Source of the DNA: a virus
Strand: one strand, 5' to 3'
IMG/VR virus record: IMGVR_UViG_3300027977_000071
Span: 1 to 40,792 of that record
DNA length: 40,792 nt
Shown here one piece after another: positions 7,159-34,926 of the stretch. The position numbers and the translations under genes were made by a program. Every line of letters starts with the position of its first letter. Position 1 is the stretch's first letter. The notes beneath the pieces were generated by a model, which made no database searches, was not told the origin of the DNA, and was given only the letters and a program-made list of their open reading frames with translations.

Positions 7159-10100
7159 ATGGCATTAGTATCCCCAGGCGTAGAAGTAACGATCATTGAC
7201 GAAAGTCAATATATCCCTGCTGCTACCAATTCAGTACCATATATTTTAATTGCAACAGCACAGAACAAAACCAGTGCCGCCGGAGTTGGCGTTGCACCAG
7301 GAACATTGGCAGCAAATGCTAACCGTGTTTATTTAATGACCAGTCAGCGAGATTTGGCTGCTACATTTGGCAATCCATTCTTCTACAAGACCACAGCTGG
7401 TACACCAATTAATGGTTACGAACTCAACGAATACGGCTTGCTGGCTGCATACTCTGCACTGGGTGTCAGTAACCGTGTGTACGTGCAACGTGCTGACATT
7501 GACTTGACAGAACTGACAGCATCGTTAACACGCCCACTAGGTGCTCCAACCAACAACACTTATTGGTTGGATACCACCAACAGTGAGTGGGGTATTTTTG
7601 AATGGAATATTACCACAGGTGCGTTCACTGTGCAAACTCCTATTGTGATTACCAGCACAACACAGCTAGAAACCAGCACCACAGTTCCATTGCAAACAGT
7701 AGGCAGCATTGGTAACTACGCCATCACCGCAACCAGTACTTTTAACCCAGGTTATTACAAACGTGGCGGCCCAACATCAGCACAGACCAATTCAGTTGCA
7801 TTGTCAGACCTGTACAACACATGGGTACTGGTTGGCAGCGATGATTGGAAAACAGCATGGCCCACTGTGTCAGGTACAGGAACACCGGTTACACTGACAC
7901 AGGGAAATTCATTTACTGTAAACGATGTACCCATTACTGTGCAAGCCAGTCCACTCAACACTGTTGATGGCATTGCTGATCAAATCAATGATGCGGCAAT
8001 CCAAGGTGTATATGCAGCCAACATCAACGGCAGACTGTATCTGTATGCAGACTCTACTGCTACCAACGACGGTAGTACAGCCGATGGTAACGGAATTATT
8101 TCTTTGGCAAATACTTCTGGAACTCCGTTGACCGCATTGGGCATTGCACTGGGCGAATACTATGCTCCTGCATATCAGCCTAGCCCCAGTTACACAGTTC
8201 CACGTTGGGGCTCTGGCCAAACTGAACCGCATCCAACTGGCAGTGTGTGGCAGAAAATTTCTGACGTAAATCAAGGCGCACAACTGGTGGTTAAAAAATA
8301 CAGTAGTATACTGGGCGCATTTATTACTCAGGCATGTCCGTTGTTTATCAGCGAATCCAATGCTATCTACGAATTAGATCCTAGTGGTGGCGGCAAAAAC
8401 ATTCCTGCCGGCAGCACCTATGGCAAGGTCAACAGTCTGCGCAACAACACATCTAGTATAACGATATTTGAACGTTTTGCTACTGGTGCAACTGAAATTA
8501 CTGGCAACACAAATACTCCAGGTCCGTTTGTGTCCGGCAATACTTTTACTATTCTTGGAACAATACCTGGTACAAACAATGTTAATACTGCAACAGCCAC
8601 GCTACTAGGAACCACTGTAGAAGATTTTATTGCAGCAGTCAGTGCTGCCAATATTCCATATGTTAGTGCAACTCTCAACAGTGCAGGCGCAGTGGTGTTT
8701 ACGCATTCTGCAGGCGGTATAATAATATTAACTAATGTAATAGGTACACCTGTTACCACAGCTGGTTTTACTACTAGCGTGCGTGGAGTTCATAATGAGT
8801 ATGTGGAGGGTGTTGCAACTGGCTTAGTACTGAGTAACTGGGTTACTGCACCTACATTTACCTACACTGCAAGTGATGCGGCCCCAGACCAAGATCCAGC
8901 AGATGGTCGTTTATGGTACTACAGTGCTGTTGATCAAGTGGATATTATGATCCAAGACAACGGTGAATGGCAAGGTTATCAAAATGTAACCAACGATGTA
9001 CGCGGTTTTGATTTGAGCACAACCAATGCCACAGGCCCAATTATCAGTGCTTCAGCACCTACCACACAAACTGACGAGTCAGAGTCACCGTTGCAGTATG
9101 GTGATTTATGGGTTGACACAAGTGACTTGGAAAATTATCCAAAGATGTACCGCTGGCAGCCAGTCAGCGGTGTAGATCAGTGGGTAGCACTGGACAACAC
9201 AGACCAGACTACCGACAACGGTGTATTGTTTGCCGATGCACGTTGGGCACCAAACGGTGACACAGATCCTATCACTGGCGCTTTCCCAACAATTACCAGT
9301 TTGTTAACAAGCGATTACTTGGACCTAGATGCTCCGAGCCCAGCACTGTATCCACAGGGCATGTTGCTGTTTAACACACGACGCAGTGGATATAATGTCA
9401 AGAGTTTCCAAGTTGATTACTTCAACGCAGACACATATCCAGACGACATACTGCCCACAGTGACCAATGCATGGGTAACAGCCAGTGGCTTGAAAGCCAA
9501 TGGCGCTCCATACATGGGTCGTCAAGCACAACGTGCTATGATTGTGGCAGCACTGAAGTCAGGCATTGATACCAACACAGACGTGCGTGAAGAACAGCGT
9601 CAGTTCAACTTGATGGCAACACCTGCCTATCCAGAGCTGATGCCCAACATGATTGCACTCAACAACGAGCGCAACAACACGGGATTTGTCATTGGTGACA
9701 CACCACTGCGTTTAGATCCACAAGACATCTTGACCTGGGCCAGTAACAACAACGGCCTAGGCCTAGACACCGGCGACGGGCTAACAGTGGGCAATCAGTT
9801 CATGGGCGTATTCTACCCAAGTTGCCAAACCACTGACCTAAGCGGCAGTCCAGTGGTAACTGCACCAAGTCACATGATGATTCGCACAATCATACGCAGT
9901 GACGAAGTGTCGTTCCCTTGGTTTGCACCAGCCGGAACACGTCGTGGTGTCATTGACAACGCTGTGCAGTTGGGCTACATCAACGCTGCAACAGGCGAGT
10001 TCCAGTCACTGGGTGTGCGCCAGGGATTGCGTGATGTGCTGTATGAAAATGCAATCAATCCAATTACGTTTATTCCCGGTGTTGGCATTACTAACTTTGG

Positions 10101-10455
10101 TAACAAAACCACTACAAGTAATACCACAGCACTGGACCGCATCAACGTGGCACGTTTGGTAGCATTTATCCGTGGACGTTTAGACATCATTGGCAAGCAG
10201 TACTTGTTTGAACCAAATGATCAGATCACTCGTAATCAGATCAAGAACTCAATCGACGGCCTAATGATTGACCTGGTTGCCAAACGTGGTCTCTATGACT
10301 ATCTAGTAGTGTGCGATGCGTCAAACAACACTCCTGCACGTATAGATCGTAACGAACTGTATGTTGATATTGCTATTGAACCGGTAAAAGCTGTTGAGTT
10401 TATATACATTCCAGTTCGTATCAAGAATACCGGGGAAATCGCTGCCGGGGGTTAA
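7159..10455 (+). CDS. 18: Tail sheath protein gp18-like, greatly enlarged
   Basis: 1098 residues against 659 in T4. The N-terminus (LVSPGVEVTIIDES, then VPYILIATAQNKT) and the C-terminal third (AQRAMIVAALKSGIDTN, WFAPAGTRRGVI, RINVARLVAFIRGRLD, then AIEPVKAVEFIYIPVRI) are classic contractile-sheath sequence. The subunits stack around the tube and contract at infection. The excess lies between about residues 130 and 700 and contains threonine- and asparagine-rich beta-type sequence. It includes repeated short modules with a Trp strand (YWLDTT near 131, LWYYSA near 582, DLWVDTS near 648) followed by Y.W or WQ pairs. These resemble the extra parts of gp14 and gp15 and probably face outwards. A strong terminator directly follows the gene. 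Confidence 0.92.
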   Translation: MALVSPGVEVTIIDESQYIPAATNSVPYILIATAQNKTSAAGVGVAPGTLAANANRVYLMTSQRDLAATFGNPFFYKTTAGTPINGYELNEYGLLAAYSALGVSNRVYVQRADIDLTELTASLTRPLGAPTNNTYWLDTTNSEWGIFEWNITTGAFTVQTPIVITSTTQLETSTTVPLQTVGSIGNYAITATSTFNPGYYKRGGPTSAQTNSVALSDLYNTWVLVGSDDWKTAWPTVSGTGTPVTLTQGNSFTVNDVPITVQASPLNTVDGIADQINDAAIQGVYAANINGRLYLYADSTATNDGSTADGNGIISLANTSGTPLTALGIALGEYYAPAYQPSPSYTVPRWGSGQTEPHPTGSVWQKISDVNQGAQLVVKKYSSILGAFITQACPLFISESNAIYELDPSGGGKNIPAGSTYGKVNSLRNNTSSITIFERFATGATEITGNTNTPGPFVSGNTFTILGTIPGTNNVNTATATLLGTTVEDFIAAVSAANIPYVSATLNSAGAVVFTHSAGGIIILTNVIGTPVTTAGFTTSVRGVHNEYVEGVATGLVLSNWVTAPTFTYTASDAAPDQDPADGRLWYYSAVDQVDIMIQDNGEWQGYQNVTNDVRGFDLSTTNATGPIISASAPTTQTDESESPLQYGDLWVDTSDLENYPKMYRWQPVSGVDQWVALDNTDQTTDNGVLFADARWAPNGDTDPITGAFPTITSLLTSDYLDLDAPSPALYPQGMLLFNTRRSGYNVKSFQVDYFNADTYPDDILPTVTNAWVTASGLKANGAPYMGRQAQRAMIVAALKSGIDTNTDVREEQRQFNLMATPAYPELMPNMIALNNERNNTGFVIGDTPLRLDPQDILTWASNNNGLGLDTGDGLTVGNQFMGVFYPSCQTTDLSGSPVVTAPSHMMIRTIIRSDEVSFPWFAPAGTRRGVIDNAVQLGYINAATGEFQSLGVRQGLRDVLYENAINPITFIPGVGITNFGNKTTTSNTTALDRINVARLVAFIRGRLDIIGKQYLFEPNDQITRNQIKNSIDGLMIDLVAKRGLYDYLVVCDASNNTPARIDRNELYVDIAIEPVKAVEFIYIPVRIKNTGEIAAGG

Positions 10456-13666: not shown

Positions 13667-14275
13667 ATGAAACATTTCAAAGAATATCTGGCAGAGAACG
13701 AACGAGTATACAATTACCGCATCAAAATTGCAGGTGATACTCCTCGGGACGTGATCAAAGCACTGGAAGAAAAACTACAACAGTTTGACATTGTTAGTAT
13801 CACTGCTCCAAAAACAACGCCGGTCATGGCTCGGTTGGCAGACTTTCCGGCCATTGAAAACGAAAGTTGTACACACATGGATGTTGAATTCCGTTACCCA
13901 GCAATTGAGCCACAGATTCGACAGATTGCTCAGCTGTTGGGCATTGATCCAAATCGTGTGTGCATGTTGACTGTGCCATACGAAAACAACTATGACAAAG
14001 AGGCTGTGGATGTTGAAAAACAAAACAAAGACCTGTTGACCAACACAGACTACCCAGCACCAAACGCAGAACAAAAAGCCTTGTACAAGGACTATTCGGC
14101 TGCTCCAGAAGATCATGCAGTGTTAAAAAATACCTATCGCAGTGACTTCAAAGTGGCTGGTGGTAAGACACCTCCTGCTGTGACCACAAACAGTTTACCA
14201 ATGGGCAACAAGAGCCCAATGACCAACATCAAGCGTCCACCCAAGCCAGCAACAGGCTACAACCCTAAAGGATAA
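13667..14275 (+). CDS. Putative internal head protein with capsid-targeting-like N-terminus
   Basis: 202 residues from the ATG at 13667; a TTG two codons earlier is less likely. The N-terminus MKHFKEYLAE closely matches the capsid-targeting sequence of T4 internal proteins (MKTYQEFIAEA), which the prohead protease gp21 cuts after L/I-x-E. Here cleavage would fall after LAE at residue 10. The next ~90 residues look like a small alpha/beta domain (YNYRIKIAGDTPRDVIKALEEKLQQFDIVSI). The C-terminal 60 are proline- and lysine-rich and probably disordered. By context it is a virion-interior protein. The targeting call is inference from the short motif and late expression. Confidence 0.68.
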   Translation: MKHFKEYLAENERVYNYRIKIAGDTPRDVIKALEEKLQQFDIVSITAPKTTPVMARLADFPAIENESCTHMDVEFRYPAIEPQIRQIAQLLGIDPNRVCMLTVPYENNYDKEAVDVEKQNKDLLTNTDYPAPNAEQKALYKDYSAAPEDHAVLKNTYRSDFKVAGGKTPPAVTTNSLPMGNKSPMTNIKRPPKPATGYNPKG

Positions 14276-14279
14276 TAAA

Positions 14280-16424
14280 ATGAGTTTTTTCCACAACCTA
14301 AACAAAACATTAGACAGCATTGCTGCCAAGCCAGAAGCCGCACAATTAAACGAGCGTGACATGAGCCGTGCTGCCAAAGGCTACGAAAAATACGGCAAAG
14401 AAGGCATGCAGGCCCTGGCCAAGGCCGGCCGCGAAGGCAAGTCATTGGATCCTGTTCGCAACAAGTATGACAAGTATGACAACAAAGAAGTAGACGAAGG
14501 TCTAGTTGATGTGGTCAAGAAAGTTGGCGGCATGGCCAAGAAAGCCGGAAGTGCAGTATTAAACAAAGTTGGCCACGGTGACGACGTAGACATGATCCGT
14601 GACTTGCAACGTAAAATGGACATGCCACAAACTGGCAAGAAGCCAGAACAAAAGACAGACGAAGCCGCTAAATGGCGTGATCCCAAATACAAAGATAAAT
14701 TGTACACCCAAGAACCACGTGATTATGACCAATATGATTATGGCGACGATGACTACTATAATCCAAAACCAGACGACTATCCTGGCGAAAAGAATTTAAA
14801 AGGCGGCGGCGAATTTAGCCACAATGATCCTTTACTAAGAGGACAAGGTATTGGACGCAGCGGTATCAAGAATAGCATATTAGATCGTGGACCAAGAAAA
14901 GGTCTGCCATCAAGAGATCAAATCACCAGCCTCAAGGGCAGTATCAAATCTGCAAAAGGAACACATACAGAACCCAACCTGCCTGAAGCTGGAGCTCCGA
15001 TGACTGCCAAGCAAAAATCATTTGCCGCACTTGCTGAGCCCAAAGACAAAATCACTTTTGCCGACAAGATTGCTGGTGCTAAAAAAGAAGTTGACGAAAT
15101 GTTAGGTGACGTTGCTGCCGAAGCCATGCGTAATGCACTGGGCGGCAGACAACAAGTGGCCGACGAAGGCAATGCATTCACTGGCGCTTTGGCCAAGACA
15201 CCAAAGGGCGGCAAGTTCAAAGTAGGTGGTAAAGAATTCACAGACACCAGCAGTGTTGACGAAGATGATGATAAAAATCCGTTCACAAACTACAAGAAGC
15301 CACGCACTGACACTCCACGTACCGGCGAAGTCACACACGGTGCCAAGCACGACACAGAGTGGACAGCAACAGGCCGTAAAGTAACACGTCGTGTTGATCC
15401 GCAAGGCAACTCAGTTGGATCAGAAACTGATGCCGAAGGCAACACAATCGAAAAGCGTGGACGTGGTCGTCCAAAGGGCGCACCACAAGGACCAGAGCGC
15501 ACCACTGCCAAAGCATACAAGCACAAAGGTGAACGCAAAGTCAAAGAAGGCGACATGGAAGAAGGCCATGACCAAGGACAGGCACAACAAATTTATAACG
15601 ACCTTGCCGACATTCGAGCAATAGCAAAGCAAGCACAGCACGGTGGCGAATTCCCACAAGGATATGCCAGTCGTTTAGAATCTGTTCTGTATGCGGCAAT
15701 GACAATGATTAAAAATCAACAGCCAGGCGATGCACAAGTTAGAGAAGCAGAGTCTACTACCAAGAAAGACAACCATGCTGAAAAAGCCGGCAAGCGAGTG
15801 GCCAAAGATATTGAGTATGATGAAAAGAAGAAAGATGGCATTCATGGCAAGAAGCGTGGTGCTGAAGATGATAAGGCCGAACGAGCTGGTAAAAAAGTAG
15901 CCAAAGACATTGAGCATGATGAAAAGAAAGATAACGAAAAAGAAGATGCTCCTAAAAAATCCAAGGGCAAGTTCAAGTTCGGTGGCAGTGTTTACGAAAC
16001 ACTGGATGCACAACTAGAAACTCTAATCACAGAAGGCATGAGCGTCACTGTGAACATGAGTCAAGATTCTGAACACGGTGAAGATCGTAAAAACATCACT
16101 GTTAATGCCGATGGCGAAGATGCTGATCGTCTAGCAGAGTTGCTACAAATGGCCGGCATGAGTCAGCAATCCGGTTCATGCAGTTCATGTGGTTCATCAC
16201 CCTGCGGCTGCGACATGATTGACGAAAACAATCCAAACTGGCCCAGCAACACTGAAACCAATGACAATGCAATGCAATATTCAGGTGGATTGAATGGTCC
16301 CAAATCAACAGGTCAGGCCACTACACCAGTGCTGGCAAGTCAATTGCGTAGACAAGTCAGTATGGAACAAAGTGCAAAAGTTGAACAGAACTTGTTGAAC
16401 TTGTACCGAACATTTGGAAAGTAA
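14280..16424 (+). CDS. Large low-complexity protein, probable virion core or internal protein
   Basis: 714 residues, strongly charged (Lys, Asp, Glu, Gly), mostly disordered in appearance. The N-terminus is MSFFHNLNKTLDSIAAKPEA followed by KGYEKYGKEGMQALAKAGREG. Visible elements: an AT-hook-like GRGRPKG near residue 394, a 33-residue tandem repeat near 500-548 (core VAKDIEYDEKK / VAKDIEHDEKK), a compact C-terminal domain (VTVNMSQDSEHGEDRKNITVNADGE trimmed by LAELLQMAGM), a Cys cluster CSSCGSSPCGC near 634, and a helical tail NLLNLYRTFGK. It starts 4 nt after the previous gene. The AT-hook and charge suggest DNA contact inside the head. No established family is recognised. Confidence 0.75.
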   Translation: MSFFHNLNKTLDSIAAKPEAAQLNERDMSRAAKGYEKYGKEGMQALAKAGREGKSLDPVRNKYDKYDNKEVDEGLVDVVKKVGGMAKKAGSAVLNKVGHGDDVDMIRDLQRKMDMPQTGKKPEQKTDEAAKWRDPKYKDKLYTQEPRDYDQYDYGDDDYYNPKPDDYPGEKNLKGGGEFSHNDPLLRGQGIGRSGIKNSILDRGPRKGLPSRDQITSLKGSIKSAKGTHTEPNLPEAGAPMTAKQKSFAALAEPKDKITFADKIAGAKKEVDEMLGDVAAEAMRNALGGRQQVADEGNAFTGALAKTPKGGKFKVGGKEFTDTSSVDEDDDKNPFTNYKKPRTDTPRTGEVTHGAKHDTEWTATGRKVTRRVDPQGNSVGSETDAEGNTIEKRGRGRPKGAPQGPERTTAKAYKHKGERKVKEGDMEEGHDQGQAQQIYNDLADIRAIAKQAQHGGEFPQGYASRLESVLYAAMTMIKNQQPGDAQVREAESTTKKDNHAEKAGKRVAKDIEYDEKKKDGIHGKKRGAEDDKAERAGKKVAKDIEHDEKKDNEKEDAPKKSKGKFKFGGSVYETLDAQLETLITEGMSVTVNMSQDSEHGEDRKNITVNADGEDADRLAELLQMAGMSQQSGSCSSCGSSPCGCDMIDENNPNWPSNTETNDNAMQYSGGLNGPKSTGQATTPVLASQLRRQVSMEQSAKVEQNLLNLYRTFGK
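15777..15930 (+). repeat. In-gene tandem repeat coding for lysine-rich helices
   Basis: Two copies, 99 nt apart, of a segment encoding AEKAGKRVAKDIEYDEKK and AERAGKKVAKDIEHDEKK, inside the 714-residue gene. The differences are mostly conservative or synonymous, so this is an old duplication under selection. Confidence 0.75.
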
Positions 16425-16427
16425 CCT

Positions 16428-16721
16428 ATGCCTATTCAAGTAATCAACTCCGCAGGCAATATTGTATGGACCACAGACAAAGCCTCTATTGCTGCCAACA
16501 GCGCAGATGTCACATATCAAGTTTTTGCCACAGCATTGGGCACAGCCACCGCTGAGGGTAACTTGTATGCCAACGTGGTTTCTGTTCCATCAGGCACTGT
16601 ACAAGAAGTTTATGTTGGTGCTGGCAATAGACTTATCCTTGCCGGTGCTAATGTAACTGCTACAGCATTGGGTACAGCAAGTTCTGCACAATCGGGTGTA
16701 TACAACGCCGCAGGAAACTAA
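16428..16721 (+). CDS. Small beta-rich protein, function unknown
   Basis: 97 residues, almost without charged residues, rich in Ala, Val, Thr and Gly. The strands (VINSAGNIVWTTD, VTYQVFATALGTATAEG, NLYANVVSVPSGTVQEVYVGAGNRLILAG) look like a beta-sandwich virion protein such as a head decoration or fibre piece. A near repeat, TALGTATAEG and TALGTASSAQ, may mark an internal duplication. It begins 3 nt after the 714-residue gene and is followed 2 nt later by the next gene, so it is in the late virion operon. Confidence 0.68.
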   Translation: MPIQVINSAGNIVWTTDKASIAANSADVTYQVFATALGTATAEGNLYANVVSVPSGTVQEVYVGAGNRLILAGANVTATALGTASSAQSGVYNAAGN

Positions 16722-16723
16722 AA

Positions 16724-17095
16724 ATGCGAGCGCATGAGTTTCTCATTGAGAAACACATTGGCAAGATTGGCAAACGACGAAGTCAAGCCACAGTAGGACT
16801 TAACAAGTTCAGAGATGCAGATCTAGCTGACAGAGCATACGAACTCAATCGAGTCATGATGGCTGCTGCTGCCACTGACGGTACATTTGTGCCTGACATA
16901 GATAATGAATCCTGGGCCGGGCGCTACAACTTGGCCATGCCCTACACTGATGTTGAACAACGCATGTTGGAAAAAGCATTCAAGGCAGTGGGATCAGACC
17001 ACGAAGACCTCAATCGCGGCGATCTGCGTAGTCAAGAACTAGCGTCAACCAACAAACGCAGTCCAGTTACAGGTTTCAAAGGATATCCTAGATGA
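16724..17095 (+). CDS. Putative internal head protein A with MRAHEFLIE leader
   Basis: 123 residues. The first nine, MRAHEFLIE, fit a gp21-type capsid-targeting peptide, with cleavage expected after LIE. The mature part starts basic (KHIGKIGKRRSQ), then has helices (DADLADRAYELNRVMMAAAATDG, VEQRMLEKAFKAVG), and ends SPVTGFKGYPR. It shares both the leader and the C-terminal SPVxxFKGYPR signature with the next gene, to which it is joined by a 4-nt ATGA overlap. This looks like tandem paralogues packaged in the capsid. The role inside the head is unknown. Confidence 0.7.
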   Translation: MRAHEFLIEKHIGKIGKRRSQATVGLNKFRDADLADRAYELNRVMMAAAATDGTFVPDIDNESWAGRYNLAMPYTDVEQRMLEKAFKAVGSDHEDLNRGDLRSQELASTNKRSPVTGFKGYPR

Positions 17096-17478
17096 GAGCC
17101 CGCGAATTTATCACAGAGCAACGTGAACTGCCGCCTGAGACCAAGAGTCCAATGCGGTATACCTATACTCTGCCCGGGTTGAGTTCATCTGACCCGTATG
17201 CCACTTATAGAATGGGTGTGGCCTTGGCGCGAGCACGTAGCGATGCCGCAAAAGACGATGTAAACCCATTCATGCCAGAATGGTCAGCTGAAACTGCTTT
17301 TGGTGAACATGCAGTGGTGGCCGGTACGAACGCTGGCATTGAACAAGTGATTGATACAGCATTGTCTATGACCAAAACACCCGGCGGCAAACAACTGGTA
17401 TCTACTACAACCAGCGACGAGCCAGACCTAGTAGACACACAAAGTCCTGTAAAGGCATTTAAAGGATACCCACGATAA
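17092..17478 (+). CDS. Putative internal head protein B with MRAREFITE leader
   Basis: 128 residues. The leader MRAREFITE matches the upstream paralogue, with expected cleavage after ITE. The middle is different: PLP-rich, then helices (YRMGVALARARSDAAKDDV, NAGIEQVIDTALSMTK). It ends SPVKAFKGYPR, nearly identical to the end of its neighbour. The stop overlaps the next ATG by one base (TAATG). The shared ends with divergent middles suggest functional ends, namely targeting and an anchoring or assembly tag, around variable cores. Confidence 0.7.
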   Translation: MRAREFITEQRELPPETKSPMRYTYTLPGLSSSDPYATYRMGVALARARSDAAKDDVNPFMPEWSAETAFGEHAVVAGTNAGIEQVIDTALSMTKTPGGKQLVSTTTSDEPDLVDTQSPVKAFKGYPR

Positions 17479-18222: not shown

Positions 18223-19362
18223 ATGACTGATAAATTCTATTGTGCCGCTCCCTGGCGCGGCCTCCATATAAACCCACGTGGCGATGTTAAAACCTGTTGT
18301 GCAGGTGATCCCAACATGCTGGGCAACCTAAACACCAACAACATAATTGAAATTCTCAACGGAGATCTGTTACAAGAAATTCGCAGCAGCATTGCACAAG
18401 GAAAACCACACCGGTACTGTTCAAACTGTGTGCAAGCAGAACGACATGGTGGCCGGTCAGAAAGAGACTGGCATAACAATGTAAATCTCAACTTTGATTA
18501 CTCCACTGCTGGTACGCAATATCACTATCCTGTCATTATAGACATTCGCTGGAACACCACTTGCAATCTAAGTTGTAACTACTGCATGGAATATTGCAGT
18601 TCAAAGTGGGCATCATTAAAAGGCATTCCAGTCAAATCAGGTTCTCGTCCTTATTACGATCAGGTGTGTGATTTTATCGAAGCACATCATGAACACATAC
18701 ACGAAGTGGCATTGGTAGGCGGCGAGCCCTTGCTGTTACCAGAAAACAACAGACTACTGGATGTAATACCCAAAGATGCAATTGTCACACTAATTACCAA
18801 CCTAACTGGTGATCTTGAAAACAATAAAATATTCCAAAAACTGGCAACGCGAAATCGTGTTGGCTGGAGCATGAGCTTTGACAACATTGGTGACCGATTA
18901 GAATATGTGCGTCACGGTGCTGAATGGAAAGAAATCCAACACAATCTTGCCCTGGTTAAAAATCTAATGACCACACAAGGGCACTGGGGAGGTATACATG
19001 CAGTGTACAACATATACAATGCCACACGCATCTGTGAACTGAGAGAATTTGCCGAGCAAACTGGAACCACAGTGTTGTGGCAGAACCTGTTCCAACCCGA
19101 CTACTTAGATCCGTTCTTGCATGGACCAGAGGTGGCACAGTTGGCTGCTGCAGAAATTGAACGCTTCTATGCTACAGGATTGGCAACGCCGGCTGAAAAA
19201 ATGTTCTTTGACAATGCCTTGGCTACCTATCGTGCAGTTAACGCGGCAACGCCTGGAATAGAACAAAAATTTCAACAACACATTGCAGAAATTGAAACAC
19301 AGTATCACCCAGACAAAGCCGGTGAGTTTGCTAAATTATGGCCGGAGTTGGCAGATGTTTGA
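18223..19362 (+). CDS. Radical SAM protein with N-terminal twitch-like Cys region
   Basis: 379 residues. The cluster motif is CX3CX2C at C114, C118 and C121 (TTCNLSCNYCMEYC), with GGEP at 166-169, the standard SAM-contact motif. Upstream lies an extra Cys set (C7, CC at 25-26, CxxC at 66-69) of the APWRGLHINPRGDVKTCC form, as in N-terminal-twitch radical SAM proteins, which probably holds an auxiliary iron-sulphur cluster. The enzyme would make a radical from SAM to modify a peptide, sugar or other substrate. The next two genes are SGNH-like, the first overlapping by 8 nt, so they may act on one pathway. A second relative lies at 26986. Confidence 0.88.
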   Translation: MTDKFYCAAPWRGLHINPRGDVKTCCAGDPNMLGNLNTNNIIEILNGDLLQEIRSSIAQGKPHRYCSNCVQAERHGGRSERDWHNNVNLNFDYSTAGTQYHYPVIIDIRWNTTCNLSCNYCMEYCSSKWASLKGIPVKSGSRPYYDQVCDFIEAHHEHIHEVALVGGEPLLLPENNRLLDVIPKDAIVTLITNLTGDLENNKIFQKLATRNRVGWSMSFDNIGDRLEYVRHGAEWKEIQHNLALVKNLMTTQGHWGGIHAVYNIYNATRICELREFAEQTGTTVLWQNLFQPDYLDPFLHGPEVAQLAAAEIERFYATGLATPAEKMFFDNALATYRAVNAATPGIEQKFQQHIAEIETQYHPDKAGEFAKLWPELADV

Positions 19363-26985: not shown

Positions 26986-28164
26986 ATGACACCCACCAAT
27001 GGAAATTTTTACTGTAGTCAAAAATTTTGGTGGTTGTCTGTTGATCTAGCAAAGCGGCAGACATTAAGCTGTTGCTCTGCCGATCCTGTGACAGTCGATA
27101 TGACATGGCTTGAGCAGAATCCTGGGCAGTTGTTCAACACACCTCATCTTCAGCAGGAAAGAACAATGATGTTACAGAATCAGCCAGTGGCCAGTTGTAA
27201 CACAGCATGTTGGCAGCCGGAAAGTCAAGGAAAATCCAGTCGCAGGTTAGTTTTTAAAAGTGATGTTGTAGTTGAAACTGACATACAGGCAAGTCCCACA
27301 GAACTGAACATAATTGTTGGAAATGACTGCAACATGACCTGTGTGTACTGTTGTAAACAATACAGTTCTGCCTGGTTGCGTGACCTGTTAGACAACGGTA
27401 CATATCATTCAGTAGACACTGGCGACGATCGATTTAAACTTAATAACGTTGATTGTATTCTGCTGAAGGTTAGTCAAAAAGCTCTAAACAAATCTGATGC
27501 GACCCAGCATCTGTTGAGCGAAATACGCAGTATACTGCTGGCAAGTACTATTCGTCAGGTGATAATAACCGGCGGCGAACCTTTTCTTTATCTTGGCTTG
27601 GCAGAGTTGGTAAAGTCAATTCCGTCGCATATCAAAGTGATAATACAGTCAGGACTGGGGGTTAATAGTAGCCGGCTTGTGCAGGAACTCAACAAGTTGC
27701 CCGCACAGCAAATTGAAATTGGTATCAGCGCAGAAACCACTGACCAACTTTATGAATTTGTGCGTTACGGCAATACCTGGAAACGTTTCTCTGAAAATAT
27801 TCAAATTCTTAGAGACTTGGCAATATCTTATAGTTTTGCCAGTGTTGTAAGTAATCTTACCATCCACGGCCTTGCTGAATTTGCACAGTATGCAGAAGAT
27901 GCCACAGTGCGATACTACCCATGCAATGACCCAGATTTTTTATCAATCAGTGTGTTAGATCCTGTCAGTAAAGACCACATTCTACAGTCAGTGGATCAGT
28001 TGCCAGAGAGTCTAAAGTCTGTAATTGTCAATTCGATTGCAGCTGACCCAACTGAACTGCAACGCTGTAATCTAAATGAGTATGTGAATGAATTTTCAAA
28101 ACGTAGAAACATATTGCCGTCAACTGTATTACCCCAGTCCTTTATTGACTGGATGGTTAAATGA
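26986..28164 (+). CDS. Second radical SAM protein, twitch-like N-terminus
   Basis: 392 residues. CX3CX2C at C115, C119 and C122 (NDCNMTCVYCCKQ) and ITGGEPF further on define the radical SAM core. As in the protein at 18223, extra Cys precede it (C10, CC at 29-30, CX3C at 71-75), and the tail shows ISAETTDQLYEFVRYGNTW, parallel to the DNIGDRLEYVRHGAEW of the first protein. The two are paralogues. It lies 5 nt after the acidic gene and 20 nt before uvsY, in the middle of the recombination operon. Substrate unknown. Confidence 0.87.
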   Translation: MTPTNGNFYCSQKFWWLSVDLAKRQTLSCCSADPVTVDMTWLEQNPGQLFNTPHLQQERTMMLQNQPVASCNTACWQPESQGKSSRRLVFKSDVVVETDIQASPTELNIIVGNDCNMTCVYCCKQYSSAWLRDLLDNGTYHSVDTGDDRFKLNNVDCILLKVSQKALNKSDATQHLLSEIRSILLASTIRQVIITGGEPFLYLGLAELVKSIPSHIKVIIQSGLGVNSSRLVQELNKLPAQQIEIGISAETTDQLYEFVRYGNTWKRFSENIQILRDLAISYSFASVVSNLTIHGLAEFAQYAEDATVRYYPCNDPDFLSISVLDPVSKDHILQSVDQLPESLKSVIVNSIAADPTELQRCNLNEYVNEFSKRRNILPSTVLPQSFIDWMVK

Positions 28165-30235: not shown

Positions 30236-31030
30236 ATGATTATACCATCCCTACAAGGAACTTGCACACAACAAAAGTTTTTTATCTACGCAGCCTGCGA
30301 CCAAAAATACTTTGATGAATTTGGACAAGAATTCATACACAGCATACAACAAAACACCGACATGGGGATTCACATGCATGTGTTCAATCCCACAGAGCAA
30401 CAGATTGCATTTTGCAATACCAGTGCCAATGTATCTATGACATATGAACATGTACCAATAGATTTGTTTCAACCGGCTGTCGACAAATGGAACCGTGCGC
30501 CAACCACAGAGCCTTTTAAATCTCAATATGATCGCACATTAACGGCCATGGGCAAAGGCCGAGATGCTGACATACAGGAACGTATGCAAAAAACATATTT
30601 TGCCTGTGCGAGATTTGTTAGACTAGCACAGTTGTTTCAGTCAACACCAGCGTTGTGCATTGACGTAGATGCTGTGGTTAGAAAATCTATTCCAGATTTA
30701 GGAACAGCACATGATTTTTTCATACACAGAATAACAGGGAAAAAAGCAAGATTTTTAGCTGGTGGCCTGTTCTTGAATGCAACTGATCCTACACGACAGT
30801 TTCTACAAGAGTATGCTGATCAATTAAATTCTTACATCACGCAGGACTATGTGTACTGGGGGCTGGATCAAGATCTATTAGATCCCATTGTACCAAAGTA
30901 TAATTTTGGACAACTTCCAATCAGTTACATCGATTGGGATATGCGTGACAGCAGTTGCATCTGGACTGCCAAAGGCACCAGGAAAGAACTGGCAATCTTT
31001 GTTAACGAGAAGCGGAAATATAGTTCTTAA
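30236..31030 (+). CDS. Glycosyltransferase-like protein with DxD motif
   Basis: 264 residues from the ATG at 30236; a longer frame back to 30062 would run through the divergent gene and the promoter and is rejected. The core has FFIYAACDQKYFDEFGQEFIHSI at the start, as in GT-A nucleotide-sugar transferases, and LCIDVDAVVRKSIPDL, a DxD-type metal site. LAGGLFLNATDPTRQFLQEYADQ follows, as in GT8-like proteins. It is a lone plus-strand gene in the sugar island, overlapping the end of the gene at 31002 by 29 nt. Acceptor and donor unknown. Confidence 0.72.
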   Translation: MIIPSLQGTCTQQKFFIYAACDQKYFDEFGQEFIHSIQQNTDMGIHMHVFNPTEQQIAFCNTSANVSMTYEHVPIDLFQPAVDKWNRAPTTEPFKSQYDRTLTAMGKGRDADIQERMQKTYFACARFVRLAQLFQSTPALCIDVDAVVRKSIPDLGTAHDFFIHRITGKKARFLAGGLFLNATDPTRQFLQEYADQLNSYITQDYVYWGLDQDLLDPIVPKYNFGQLPISYIDWDMRDSSCIWTAKGTRKELAIFVNEKRKYSS

Positions 31031-31928
31031 TTGCGCTCCATAGTTTTCCAGTTCTTACTTCCTCGTTGCTCCAGTGTATGTTGGCAATTTTGTGTATCCA
31101 CTCTGATCGATCGGGCATGGGCGGATTTAGTATTTGACTTATGTCCGTGAATGCCACATTGGCCGCCCAACTGTGCCTGGAATCTTCAATGTAGCCAGGA
31201 ACTCCTTCAATGGCAGCAACCACGTTGGGAGTTGAGTTGTATCCAACCGTGCACCAGCAGTTGATCAAATCTTCTTTTATATTGTCTTTGTCAGATATCC
31301 CAATACGTTTGCCGTAGCGTTTTTGTATTTTTTCAATCTGTTTAAATCGCGATCCGTCGCCTGGATGCATACGTACAACAATGGGACGTTTGGGTTCAAT
31401 TTTACGAATCTTGGCAATGGTTTTATCTAGCCAAGAGTCTTGGTCGTTGCCAAACATGTTCCAGCCTTTGGGACGCTGGCACAAGATTAATATGTGATGG
31501 CCACGCTCGCCTTCTCTCCAGGGCTGGAGTTCTACCCCGTGCCATTGGCTGTATGTTGTCCACTTGTTGCGATCTATGTCTTGAAAAAAATACTCACCGT
31601 TGCCTGGATACACACTGTTGAGACTGTAGCGATGCCATTCGTGTTCTTTTCTTGCGTAGTGTAAAATGTTGCTGTCCACAAATACAGGTGGAGTTTTTTG
31701 TGCTTTTAAACTGGTGATAATTTTGTTTCTAAAATTATCCTCCAGTGTATACCCCAATACAAATCCTGCATCCAATGGTTGGTCTGGCAAGGTATTTCCC
31801 CGGTATTCAATAACTTTGTCGCCTTGACTTTCAACGCCGGCTTTGAAGTTGTCCATCAACATTGTTTTGTTTGAAAACTTGGCAGGATTGCTGATTGAAT
31901 TATAAAATATTCCTACCTTCATACCCAC
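31002..31928 (-). CDS. KpsC/KpsS-like glycosyltransferase paralogue 2
   Basis: 308 residues. VVRMHPGDGSRF and NSTPNVVAAIEGVPGYIED correspond to the RPHPRQR and NSGPGPQAVLNGVPAFV of the paralogue at 29378, and the C-terminal PPMPDRSEWIHKIANIHWSNEEVRTG matches its end. Residues 1-60 form a Rossmann-like start. It is the last gene of the minus-strand run from 34926 and overlaps the preceding one by 10 nt. Function as a sugar transferase is inferred from these motifs. Confidence 0.74.
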   Translation of the reverse strand: MGMKVGIFYNSISNPAKFSNKTMLMDNFKAGVESQGDKVIEYRGNTLPDQPLDAGFVLGYTLEDNFRNKIITSLKAQKTPPVFVDSNILHYARKEHEWHRYSLNSVYPGNGEYFFQDIDRNKWTTYSQWHGVELQPWREGERGHHILILCQRPKGWNMFGNDQDSWLDKTIAKIRKIEPKRPIVVRMHPGDGSRFKQIEKIQKRYGKRIGISDKDNIKEDLINCWCTVGYNSTPNVVAAIEGVPGYIEDSRHSWAANVAFTDISQILNPPMPDRSEWIHKIANIHWSNEEVRTGKLWSAIKNYISASR

Positions 31929-32614
31929 CCACCTGATCTATCTTTAACTTTTTTCCAAGTTGGATGATTGTTTTCAATACGACGCATAATAGCCTCAAAA
32001 TTCTCATTCATATATTTTTTAAACGCAATTTTATCTTCGCGTCTAATAGACTGAGAACGCTGGTACGTTGCGTCTAACGGGGACTGTTCAAAATTAAAAT
32101 GTGCATGCTCTACCACAACGTCATTTAGTCGGCCGTGTTTATTGCAACAATGATGTAATTGTTCCCAGAATGTATCTGTGCCAAAGTGTCTTACAGTCGG
32201 AATACTAAAGAATCCAACAGTCCTTACAAGATCTCCACCCACACACGGATGGCATATTCTTATGCGTTTTTCATACACATCATTGGCATAACTTATCTGA
32301 TCCGGCACGGCTGCTTCTATAAGGCGTTGATCCCAGTGTTGAGTTTTGGGAACCTGGTCGTCAGCTAGTATACCATACCATGGTTCGTTGGGATACTTGT
32401 TAAACATTTCGTTCATTGCTTGACCAACACGGGCTTGTGGTCCAACAACTAATTCAAAGTTGGAAGGCCACGGCAATTTTAGTACTGCCTCTAGATCTGG
32501 ATCATCCTCGTCCATGCGTACATACACTGGACTTGACGCCCCGGTGCGTATCCAAGATTCAATAAACCTTACACAGTTAGAAAAACGAGAACGTGTGGCA
32601 AATACCCACATCAT
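31919..32614 (-). CDS. Glycosyltransferase-like (GT-A fold)
   Basis: 231 residues. The start FATRSRFSNCVRFIESWIRTG, then a VYVRMDEDDPDL strand-loop and WYGILADDQVPKTQHWDQR give a GT2-like plan with an LADDQ acidic motif in place of DxD. H-rich sequence (VEHAHFNFEQSPLDATYQRS) follows. AAAGGATCA precedes the start codon. It sits between the GT25-like gene (37-nt gap) and the KpsS-like gene (10-nt overlap). Confidence 0.7.
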   Translation of the reverse strand: MMWVFATRSRFSNCVRFIESWIRTGASSPVYVRMDEDDPDLEAVLKLPWPSNFELVVGPQARVGQAMNEMFNKYPNEPWYGILADDQVPKTQHWDQRLIEAAVPDQISYANDVYEKRIRICHPCVGGDLVRTVGFFSIPTVRHFGTDTFWEQLHHCCNKHGRLNDVVVEHAHFNFEQSPLDATYQRSQSIRREDKIAFKKYMNENFEAIMRRIENNHPTWKKVKDRSGGWV

Positions 32615-32651
32615 TGATCCTTTAGGTCAGTTATTAAAATATTTGCCACCT

Positions 32652-33482
32652 TCATTCTACCCGACCAGTTGATGCAGTAATGACTAATTCTTTGTAATCA
32701 TCGTCGATAATTTTTTCTTTTAACATCATACTCCAATCTTTGCTTTTAGTCATTGACACATTGCCTTCTTCTGGCAATGTGTTTCTTCCCATAAGATAAT
32801 TGTGTATGTATATAGGTGTTAGGTATTGATTTATAGCATTATCTGCTGGATACCAATAGGGTTTATAGAATTTAATCAATCTCAATGCGGCATTAGGGGT
32901 GATTGCATATCCGCTTGCACCCGGCATGCTGAAATTCCTCCATGTCCTGGCTTGTGGATTTCCTGTGGGATTTTCCAAATAAGTTTTGTGAGGTTCTGAT
33001 AGGAAACTTGATTTACCTAAACTTAAAATCAATACACCATTGAATGTCACTGGATTCCATCCTCGATAAAACTTAACGTCATCTTCAAAAATCATAATAG
33101 GCTCATCAAGGTCAACACACTTTTGCCACAAAGAATAGTGACTATAGAAACATCCTACTACTCCGGGACGACTTAGTTTGCCCACATGTTCCTCACTGAT
33201 TGCTTGTCTTTCTGTTATCTGGTAATGATATTTTTTTTTGAATTCTTCAAGTAATTCTGGACGGATTATTCTTTCAAGGTCCTTGTCGCCCAGGACACGA
33301 TTTTTAATACTGTATGGATACAATATTTTTTTAGCTTTGGCTGCTAGTTTTACAGCCCGGTCTCCCGGAGTACCTTCAAATAGATGAGCATCAATATTAT
33401 ATGATTTCAGTTGTTCAAGCATGTAGACCGAGTGTTGAACGCTGTGTTCACGTTCTGGAAGATAGATGATAAATGCTTTCAT
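32652..33482 (-). CDS. Glycosyltransferase family 25-like
   Basis: 276 residues. GVVGCFYSHYSLWQKCVDLDEP and IMIFEDDVKFY are the signature of GT25 (LPS/glycan galactosyltransferase) proteins, with FIIYLPEREHSVQH at the N-terminus also typical. GASGYAITPNAALRLIKF is the usual late GT25 block. The family adds sugars in lipopolysaccharide and on collagen-type acceptors. It overlaps the upstream gene by 4 nt, so it is co-translated. Target unknown. Confidence 0.85.
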   Translation of the reverse strand: MKAFIIYLPEREHSVQHSVYMLEQLKSYNIDAHLFEGTPGDRAVKLAAKAKKILYPYSIKNRVLGDKDLERIIRPELLEEFKKKYHYQITERQAISEEHVGKLSRPGVVGCFYSHYSLWQKCVDLDEPIMIFEDDVKFYRGWNPVTFNGVLILSLGKSSFLSEPHKTYLENPTGNPQARTWRNFSMPGASGYAITPNAALRLIKFYKPYWYPADNAINQYLTPIYIHNYLMGRNTLPEEGNVSMTKSKDWSMMLKEKIIDDDYKELVITASTGRVE

Positions 33483-34174
33483 TGTGATTGTGTATTAGTT
33501 CTTTGCAGACAATATTCAGTTAATATGCGTTCACGATGCCACTCGTCGCCTTGTGGGGTGTCAGCAAACTCTTGAAAGCAAGGTGTGCCCAGTGTGTAGT
33601 GCAATAGCTTGGCATCTCGGTTGACGCCGTATTCATCTGGCAGCCAGTTCCATTCCTTTGGAAGTTCGCCAATACGATCATCTTCTAGCCACGAGAAGCG
33701 GTGGAGCTCACTACCTGTGGCGTGTTGGACAAACTCTGGAGTAAGTCGCCTGTTGGGAAAGCTGTTGCAATTCCACAAAATAACACTTGACCAATTTTTT
33801 CGAGGATAATCTTCGTTTCGTGCTCCAAGATATTTTACAGGCATGCGTGTTTTGTAGTCATGTTTGACCACCATTACATCCTTGTATGAATTTTGTAATT
33901 CCCACAACTCTACGATATCACCACGTACAATCATGTCGCCGTCAATAAAAATTGCCCAGCCTGTGTATTCTTGCAAGTGCGGCACAAGAAATCGTGTGTA
34001 GATAAAGTGATTGCTGCCATCTGTGTGTGTTTCTTTGTAGTCACTAAACAAGTTCAATGCCACAGGAACAATGGCCACGGGCTTTGATGCGTGTCTTATG
34101 ATTGAGTTGGCGCAGGTGTGAAAAGCAATGGCTTCTCTTGGATCATAGCCAATGTAAACTGGTATGGCCTTCAT
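33479..34174 (-). CDS. GT8-like nucleotide-sugar transferase
   Basis: 231 residues. IPVYIGYDPREAIAFHTCANSI at the start, YTRFLVPHL, and WAIFIDGDMIVRGDI (DxD) are typical for GT8-like proteins, followed by SSVILWNCNSF and LLHYTLGTP. The enzyme would use a nucleotide sugar. It overlaps the cytidylyltransferase-cupin gene upstream and the GT25-like gene downstream by 4 nt each, so all three are one translation unit. Confidence 0.8.
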   Translation of the reverse strand: MKAIPVYIGYDPREAIAFHTCANSIIRHASKPVAIVPVALNLFSDYKETHTDGSNHFIYTRFLVPHLQEYTGWAIFIDGDMIVRGDIVELWELQNSYKDVMVVKHDYKTRMPVKYLGARNEDYPRKNWSSVILWNCNSFPNRRLTPEFVQHATGSELHRFSWLEDDRIGELPKEWNWLPDEYGVNRDAKLLHYTLGTPCFQEFADTPQGDEWHRERILTEYCLQRTNTQSQ

Positions 34175-34926
34175 TGGCGTTCGATGTCTTCTTCTACACA
34201 GTTGTCACCGTACTGAATCTCAATTAACTTTAACGGCTGATCAGTTTCGTTACACAGCATGTGCCATTGATTTTTAGCAATCCAAACGTAGTCATGCACT
34301 GCAAAATTTCCAAACAGCTCGTGATCGCTGGCATTGTTCAGAGTATATACCGCAGCCTCACCTTCGGCTACAAACCAAAATTCTGCACGATGCTCATGGC
34401 GTTGCATGCTCAGGCATGTTTTAGGAGCCACAGTTAGTTCTTTGAGTTTGGTAGTTGCACCAACTTCGTGCAACACACGATAATATCCCCAAGCCCGCTC
34501 AGTCCGGGGTTTCTTCCAATCTTCCAAGATCCAACTACTACTGTTGGCTTTGTTGTCTCCGCCCACACCAAACACAAACTCCACATCATCAAACACCTGT
34601 TCTGGAATGTTGTCTGGTGTTCTATCTCCGCCGTTGGCAAAGATAATTTCATCATTGGGGTATTTTTCCTTGACTTTGCGTATGGCATCACAGGCTGTGC
34701 CGTCGCTGTCGTCAAACTCGATCACTGCTCCAACCATGTGCAAATTGTCCAGCACGGTCATGCGTTCGTGCCATGTCATGAATGGACGACCTTTTTTACG
34801 TGTGAGCCACGCATCTGAGTTTAGTCCAACAACCACATGATCACCTAGATGATCAGCATGATTGAGATAGGATATGTGTCCTGAGTGTATGGGGTCAAAC
34901 CCGCCGGTTACTATAACTATTTTCAT
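34171..34926 (-). CDS. Cytidylyltransferase-cupin fusion (nucleotide-sugar enzyme)
   Basis: 251 residues with two domains. The first ~130 residues are a cytidylyltransferase-like nucleotidyltransferase: TGGFDPIHSGHISYL (HxGH at 14-17), VVGLNSDAWL and WHERMTVL, as in glycerol-3-phosphate or heptose cytidyl-/adenylyltransferases. From about residue 142, ERAWGYYRVLHE then MQRHEHRAEFWFVAEG and KNQWHMLCNE give a type II phosphomannose isomerase (ManC C-terminal) cupin. The combination suggests a one-polypeptide enzyme making an activated sugar for the transferases that follow. It is the first gene of the minus-strand operon, with a CATAAATA box 5 nt before its ATG. Confidence 0.85.
   Translation of the reverse strand: MKIVIVTGGFDPIHSGHISYLNHADHLGDHVVVGLNSDAWLTRKKGRPFMTWHERMTVLDNLHMVGAVIEFDDSDGTACDAIRKVKEKYPNDEIIFANGGDRTPDNIPEQVFDDVEFVFGVGGDNKANSSSWILEDWKKPRTERAWGYYRVLHEVGATTKLKELTVAPKTCLSMQRHEHRAEFWFVAEGEAAVYTLNNASDHELFGNFAVHDYVWIAKNQWHMLCNETDQPLKLIEIQYGDNCVEEDIERQ

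Follow-up and report, generated by a model that had tools for sequence, protein, structure and literature searches.

The DNA analyzed here (the window), 40.8 kb long, is a virus record from IMG/VR (IMGVR_UViG_3300027977_000071), in which three of five neighboring genes, designated A to E (Table 1), encode proteins that begin with a short leader like that of the phage T4 internal proteins IPII and IPIII (MKTYQEFIAE/A; a slash marks the cleavage site throughout). The open reading frames and starts of these three genes, A (13667), D (16724), and E (17092), and the L/I-x-E ending of their leaders are exactly as given in a preliminary description of this DNA, and the C-terminal SPVxxFKGYPR it reported for D and E was confirmed. 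Its use of the word cluster calls for a qualification, A being parted from D and E by B and C. Within the window, T4-like structural and replication genes (gp4-, gp17-, gp18-, gp19-, gp32-, UvsX-, and UvsY-like) were identified, encoding a tail sheath, two tail tube proteins, a gp4-like head closure protein, small- and large-terminase-like (gp17-like) proteins, a gp32-like single-stranded DNA-binding protein, and UvsX- and UvsY-like proteins; the window was thus assigned to the T4 superfamily.

A megablast search of the region against cultured phages gave no match, and no homologues of D or E were found among 50,697 cultured phage records, while gene A has weak homologues in PA5oct-like Pseudomonas phages and in Sinorhizobium phage Phosso. 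Homologues of A, B, D, and E recur in many IMG/VR contigs with gene order kept, and across this group A, D, and E sit beside terminase, neck, and tail genes in a fixed order. The closest long relative used, contig G001 (346,856 bases), encodes a gene A product 91% identical to that of the window.

To the residue, the leaders are under strong conservation. Among distinct homologues the P1 glutamate was kept in 102 of 103 for A, 72 of 79 for D, and all 99 for E, with P2 free and P3 occupied by Leu, Ile, Val, or Met across the three families. In the A family (103 distinct proteins) F4, Y7, L8 (with few Ile), and E10 are fixed and positions 3, 5, 6, and 9 vary; in the D and E families R2, A3, E5, and F6 are fixed or almost so, followed by Ile, Val, or Leu at position 7, a variable position 8, and Glu at position 9. 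As one of the fetch patterns for A and one for E overlapped the leader, the sampling of homologues was not fully independent of it, most patterns being placed in the body. According to a review of T4 head assembly (PMC9026906), targeting of IPIII depends on residues 4 and 7 and its processing on residues 8 and 10, the prohead protease gp21 cleaves after L/I-x-E, and an Asp at position 10 of IPIII prevents processing yet permits targeting. The fixed positions 4, 7, 8, and 10 of A are these IPIII determinants, which places A in the same register as MKTYQEFIAE.

That the three N-termini resemble one another by accident, with no function in common, is scarcely conceivable. The motif is short: [FY][LIVM]xE at residues 4 to 13 is expected by chance in approximately 0.5 of the 49 genes called in the window (about 1% of genes), and one further match, at 32652 on the minus strand, was rejected as such an accident, the gene being a glycosyltransferase (PF01755). 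However, the leader is conserved over divergent homologues, which already contradicts this explanation and excludes chance for A, D, and E. At the DNA level, a pattern for the MRAxEF-type leader matched approximately 50 sites in 15 related records against none for the reversed pattern, and over all of IMG/VR a permuted pattern of equal specificity gave 8 matches against at least about 120 for the true one.

The protease and shell protein that such a leader calls to mind were sought in relatives of the window phage. Both gp21 (PF03420) and gp23 (PF07068) were each identified in 14 of 15 records, comprising 13 of 14 related contigs and PA5oct; neither was found in G010, a 200-kb contig. The gp23 N-termini of all 13 relatives read ENT[RK]KYLKE/NA[ST][AS]GST, with FLVE/NAS in PA5oct, and the YLKE site aligns with the T4 gp23 cleavage site SFLTE/AEIGG. 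The check proposed in the preliminary description, whether gp21 and the capsid protein go by the same cleavage rule, therefore points to a shared rule in the relatives, which encode gp21 (peptidase S77) and have a gp23 with a putative [FY]LxE/N site at the equivalent place, although the junction YLKE/NASAGST differs in sequence from that of T4. In the relatives gp22 terminates in VI[TSAV]E, which is conserved. Every leader-bearing contig no shorter than 190 kb encoded gp21 (10 of 10), as did 15 of the 20 leader-bearing contigs overall, with no gp21 above the cut-off in 5 of the 10 shorter ones (<190 kb).

Table 1. Features of the A to E region and of small proteins that copy a gp23 cleavage junction
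Feature	Position	Strand	Description
Gene A	13667..14275	+	202-aa predicted head protein, leader MKHFKEYLAE (start MKHFKEYLAEN), predicted cut after Glu10
Leader of A, residues 1-10	13667..13696	+	From alignment of homologues
C-terminal NKSPMTNIKRPPKPATGYNPKG tail of A	14207..14272	+	SP[VM] (SPM in A) common to D, E, and the gp67-like core protein
Gene B	14280..16424	+	714-aa hydrophilic protein, probable additional gp21 substrate
Gene C	16428..16721	+	97 aa, without leader or L/I-x-E start
Gene D	16724..17095	+	123-aa predicted head protein, leader MRAHEFLIE (start MRAHEFLIEK), predicted cut after Glu9
Leader of D, residues 1-9	16724..16750	+	
C-terminal SPVTGFKGYPR of D	17060..17092	+	
Gene E	17092..17478	+	128-aa predicted head protein, leader MRAREFITE (start MRAREFITEQ), predicted cut after Glu9
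Leader of E, residues 1-9	17092..17118	+	
C-terminal SPVKAFKGYPR of E	17443..17475	+	
T4 gene 61.1	AF158101 18966-19130; locus L720:670-831	-	54 aa, hypothetical
Small tagged gp23-junction mimics	G001:62030 (L269:2030-2227), G003:74429, G005:65051		Each copies its own lineage's junction

Beyond the leaders, D and E are paralogues with 24% end-to-end identity, and at another locus (L213) several tandem copies of a D/E-type gene stand in a row. The computed isoelectric point (pI) of the mature body is 6.9 for A, 9.3 for D, and 5.1 for E, compared with 9.6 for T4 IPII/IPIII, so that only D has the basic body of T4 internal proteins. Using Pfam and PHROGs, nothing informative was found for genes A to F save a weak match of A to the PHROG category "virion structural protein" (E-value, 0.0038); B fell into no significant family, and no ADP-ribosyltransferase (ART), other enzyme, or defense-related domain was found in A, D, or E. 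A ferredoxin-like core was predicted for A, the fold search of which gave weak ferredoxin-like and ribosomal S6-like matches that do not inform on function, and the fold search of D gave no significant match. The SP[VM] C-terminal motif is confined to 4 of the 424 genes of G001 (0.7 expected), namely A, D, E, and a gp67-like protein. The latter, an acidic protein of 255 aa encoded directly upstream of gp21, is a predicted prohead core protein, its likeness to T4 gp67 being one of position and composition. All 23 homologues of B retain an N-terminal LNE (residues 23 to 25), and internal sites are also kept (ITE585, in 96% of homologues, and VDE273). The conservation of LNE25 and ITE585 makes B a probable fourth gp21 substrate besides A, D, and E, one that is absent from the preliminary description.

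These observations are best explained, with good probability, if the window derives from a large (jumbo) T4 superfamily phage in which A, D, and E, and probably B, are head proteins, the first three being tagged, gp21-processed, conserved internal components of the head or core. The capsid-targeting leader of 9 to 10 residues would dock each protein in the scaffold core during prohead assembly, by analogy with T4 IPIII; the S77 protease gp21 would then cut after [Leu/Ile/Val]-x-Glu, a rule apparently followed by gp23 too, and so free mature A, D, and E inside the head. Comparison of the sequences leaves a head-targeting leader removable by gp21 well supported. The presence of A, D, and E throughout the group, their synteny, and the SP[VM] that they have in common with the gp67-like protein make it probable that they are conserved internal components of the head or core, and we infer that after cleavage they would serve mainly in head assembly, genome organization, or ejection and not in host-specific counter-defense. 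The same leader would be a reusable loading tag by which variable genes elsewhere attach other, often basic or enzymatic, cargo. Among cultured phages, PA5oct encodes a homologue of A over residues 1 to 102, EST35_0202, which likewise follows the genes for a tail tube protein and a gp4-like protein and is annotated "structural protein, ESI-MS/MS," an annotation that denotes detection in virions by mass spectrometry.

Several points weigh against this reading. Neither gp21 nor gp23 lies in the window as far as it is annotated, the protease evidence being that of relatives, and both cleavage and virion presence are predictions for A, D, and E of this phage. The D/E leader, MRAxEF[ILV]xE, is one residue shorter than that of T4 and starts with Met-Arg. 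The cultured homologues of A, in PA5oct (MKSFRDYYDAS) and Phosso (MKNFYEYLSS), keep M-K-x-F-x-x-Y but are without the P1 Glu; processing is thus not universal, and the homologue supported by mass spectrometry is no proof of cleavage, although both would fit targeting without processing, as with Asp10 of IPIII. The PA5oct gene at the position of B, EST35_0203, is not similar to it. The same cultured homologues would suit a leader that targets the protein to the head or core and stays uncut, its L/I-x-E appearance reflecting a helix-binding motif and not a protease site, as would the predicted structures, in which the leader forms a short helix. We regard this as very unlikely, given a near-invariant P1 Glu beside a free P2, a conservation boundary at that Glu, the co-occurrence of gp21, and the same site in gp23.

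The preliminary description took A, D, and E for probable capsid-targeted internal proteins; noting that those of T4 are injected with the genome and counter host defenses, it suggested that these could be the most host-relevant genes of the window. Of the T4 type, the leader, with its aromatic residues, aliphatic P3, and Glu at P1, the L/I-x-E site, the presence of gp21 and of the same gp23 site in relatives, and the reuse of the leader on different bodies were borne out; the basic body and the variability were not. T4 internal proteins are not highly conserved (PMC9026906), and their bodies are exchanged, whereas A, D, and E behave as conserved, syntenic core-type genes, and it is other leader genes that vary. 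That A, D, and E are nevertheless true internal proteins in the T4 style, with the leader cut and the mature protein stored with the DNA, injected, and active against restriction or other defenses, is unlikely. The identity of leader type, the basic pI of D, and the occurrence of the leader in relatives on S-adenosylmethionine (SAM) lyase, ADP-ribosyltransferase, and GNAT bodies, all plausible injected effectors, speak for it. Conservation in fixed order over many contigs, the nonbasic A and E, SP[VM] as in a core protein, the lack of any defense-related domain in the Pfam and PHROGs searches, and the structural homologue of A in PA5oct speak against it, and the claim of an injected counter-defense role was not upheld.

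To define what follows the leader elsewhere, IMG/VR was scanned with MRA- and MKT-type motifs, giving at least about 120 matches each; as the sets were retrieved by motif, its presence in them is by construction, and they inform on the diversity of the bodies. Among the matches listed, these formed 55 (MRA) and 64 (MKT) clusters with no detectable similarity between clusters, both numbers being overestimates, as some singletons are chance matches and distant homology may merge others. Conservation stops at the Glu that separates leader from body. The bodies included SAM lyase (PF23780), ART-PolyVal, ADP-ribosyltransferase exoenzyme-like, GNAT, DUF6267, and DUF6321 proteins, and the median pI of the listed cargo was 9.27, compared with 5.87 for the G001 and G003 genes, the two sets coming partly from different phages. 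A Helicase_C protein in the set (L566) was set aside, the match being probably due to a chance internal Met. A relaxed MK-type pattern, applied to the whole T4 genome as a positive control, matched exactly ipII, ipIII, and gene 61.1.

The injected ADP-ribosyltransferase Alt of T4 provides a precedent for a head-loaded enzyme, and some leader bodies in related phages are ART-like, unlike A, D, and E. An ART-PolyVal profile matched in only 1 of 34 large records, which makes ART a rare kind of cargo in the closest group. SAM lyase was found in 2 of the 34, one with the leader and the other beginning MSIVLEASLSRV, without the MKTF leader. An MKT cluster of 30 among the matches listed (e.g., L587:1441-2151, L675:599-1102, and L700:1405-1911) consists of SAM lyase-like proteins (PF23780) with the leader, which suggests head-delivered SAM depletion; a phmmer search for a relative in PDB found none. 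Islands of variable leader genes were observed at 43 to 62 kb in G001, 54 to 74 kb in G003, 266 to 271 kb in G007, and 235 to 238 kb in G008. These variable, basic genes fit the idea of injected effectors better than A, D, and E of the window and are the better candidates. Judged by its attachment to dozens of dissimilar proteins in related phages, the tag looks like a general address label.

A link between this leader type and the gp23 cleavage site emerged independently from small proteins in which the two are joined. T4 gp61.1 (beginning MKTFKEFIKEDMVAGDSGGNPENISIGTTSGAVVNKGP) joins the leader MKTFKEFIKE, of the capsid-targeting type, to a copy of residues 57 to 93 of T4 gp23, which span its cleavage junction and the N-arm of the mature protein; the two align without gaps at a score of 82, compared with 25 ± 4 for shuffled sequences. 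Against gp23 of G001 it scored 29, which is no match, and the G001 mimic likewise had none in T4 gp23. For the latter protein (66 aa, beginning MRAQEFIKENASVGATSSGSVATVAMP), the best match over the 102,732 positions of the proteome is the gp23 junction YLKENASAGSTAAGNIATLNRV, with a score of 58, the next-best position reaching 31 and the best of 200 shuffles 45. The mimic gene adjoins a conserved 146-aa gene in G001 and G003. Matches resembling gp61.1 were found in 1437 phage records, several of them annotated as major capsid domain proteins, and some may be gp23 itself.

On balance, we lean toward the view that a short removable tag, M[RK]xxEF[ILV]xE or MKTFxEF[ILV]xE, serves as a general label for head loading that recombines freely among environmental T4 superfamily phages and is carried by dozens of families of cargo, with SAM lyases, ADP-ribosyltransferases, and acetyltransferases among them, alongside a dedicated set of small proteins with the tag, such as T4 gp61.1, in which the cleavage junction and the mature N-arm of the phage's own major capsid protein are copied, perhaps to bind the inner shell or regulate gp21. 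Capsid targeting in T4, and the suggestion that T4-like phages load varied proteins by this means, are already in print (PMC9026906), whereas the limited literature searched yielded no account of so broad a range of cargo in environmental jumbo phages, of the MRA variant, or of the mimics of the gp23 junction, gp61.1 among them. Should the leader prove reliable as a tag for head loading, a motif of nine residues would be enough to list, from sequence, the proteins that uncultured T4-like phages may deliver with the virion, and that list already holds enzymes that could act on the host immediately after infection.

Elsewhere in the window, the tail sheath protein (7159-10455) is, at 1,098 aa, long for its family and is followed downstream by the two tail tube-like genes. 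Two radical SAM proteins (18223-19362 and 26986-28164), the first with a SPASM domain, are encoded amid structural and recombination genes, and a block on the minus strand (31002-34926) carries glycosyltransferases of families 25 and 8 and a cytidylyltransferase/mannose-6-phosphate isomerase-type fusion.

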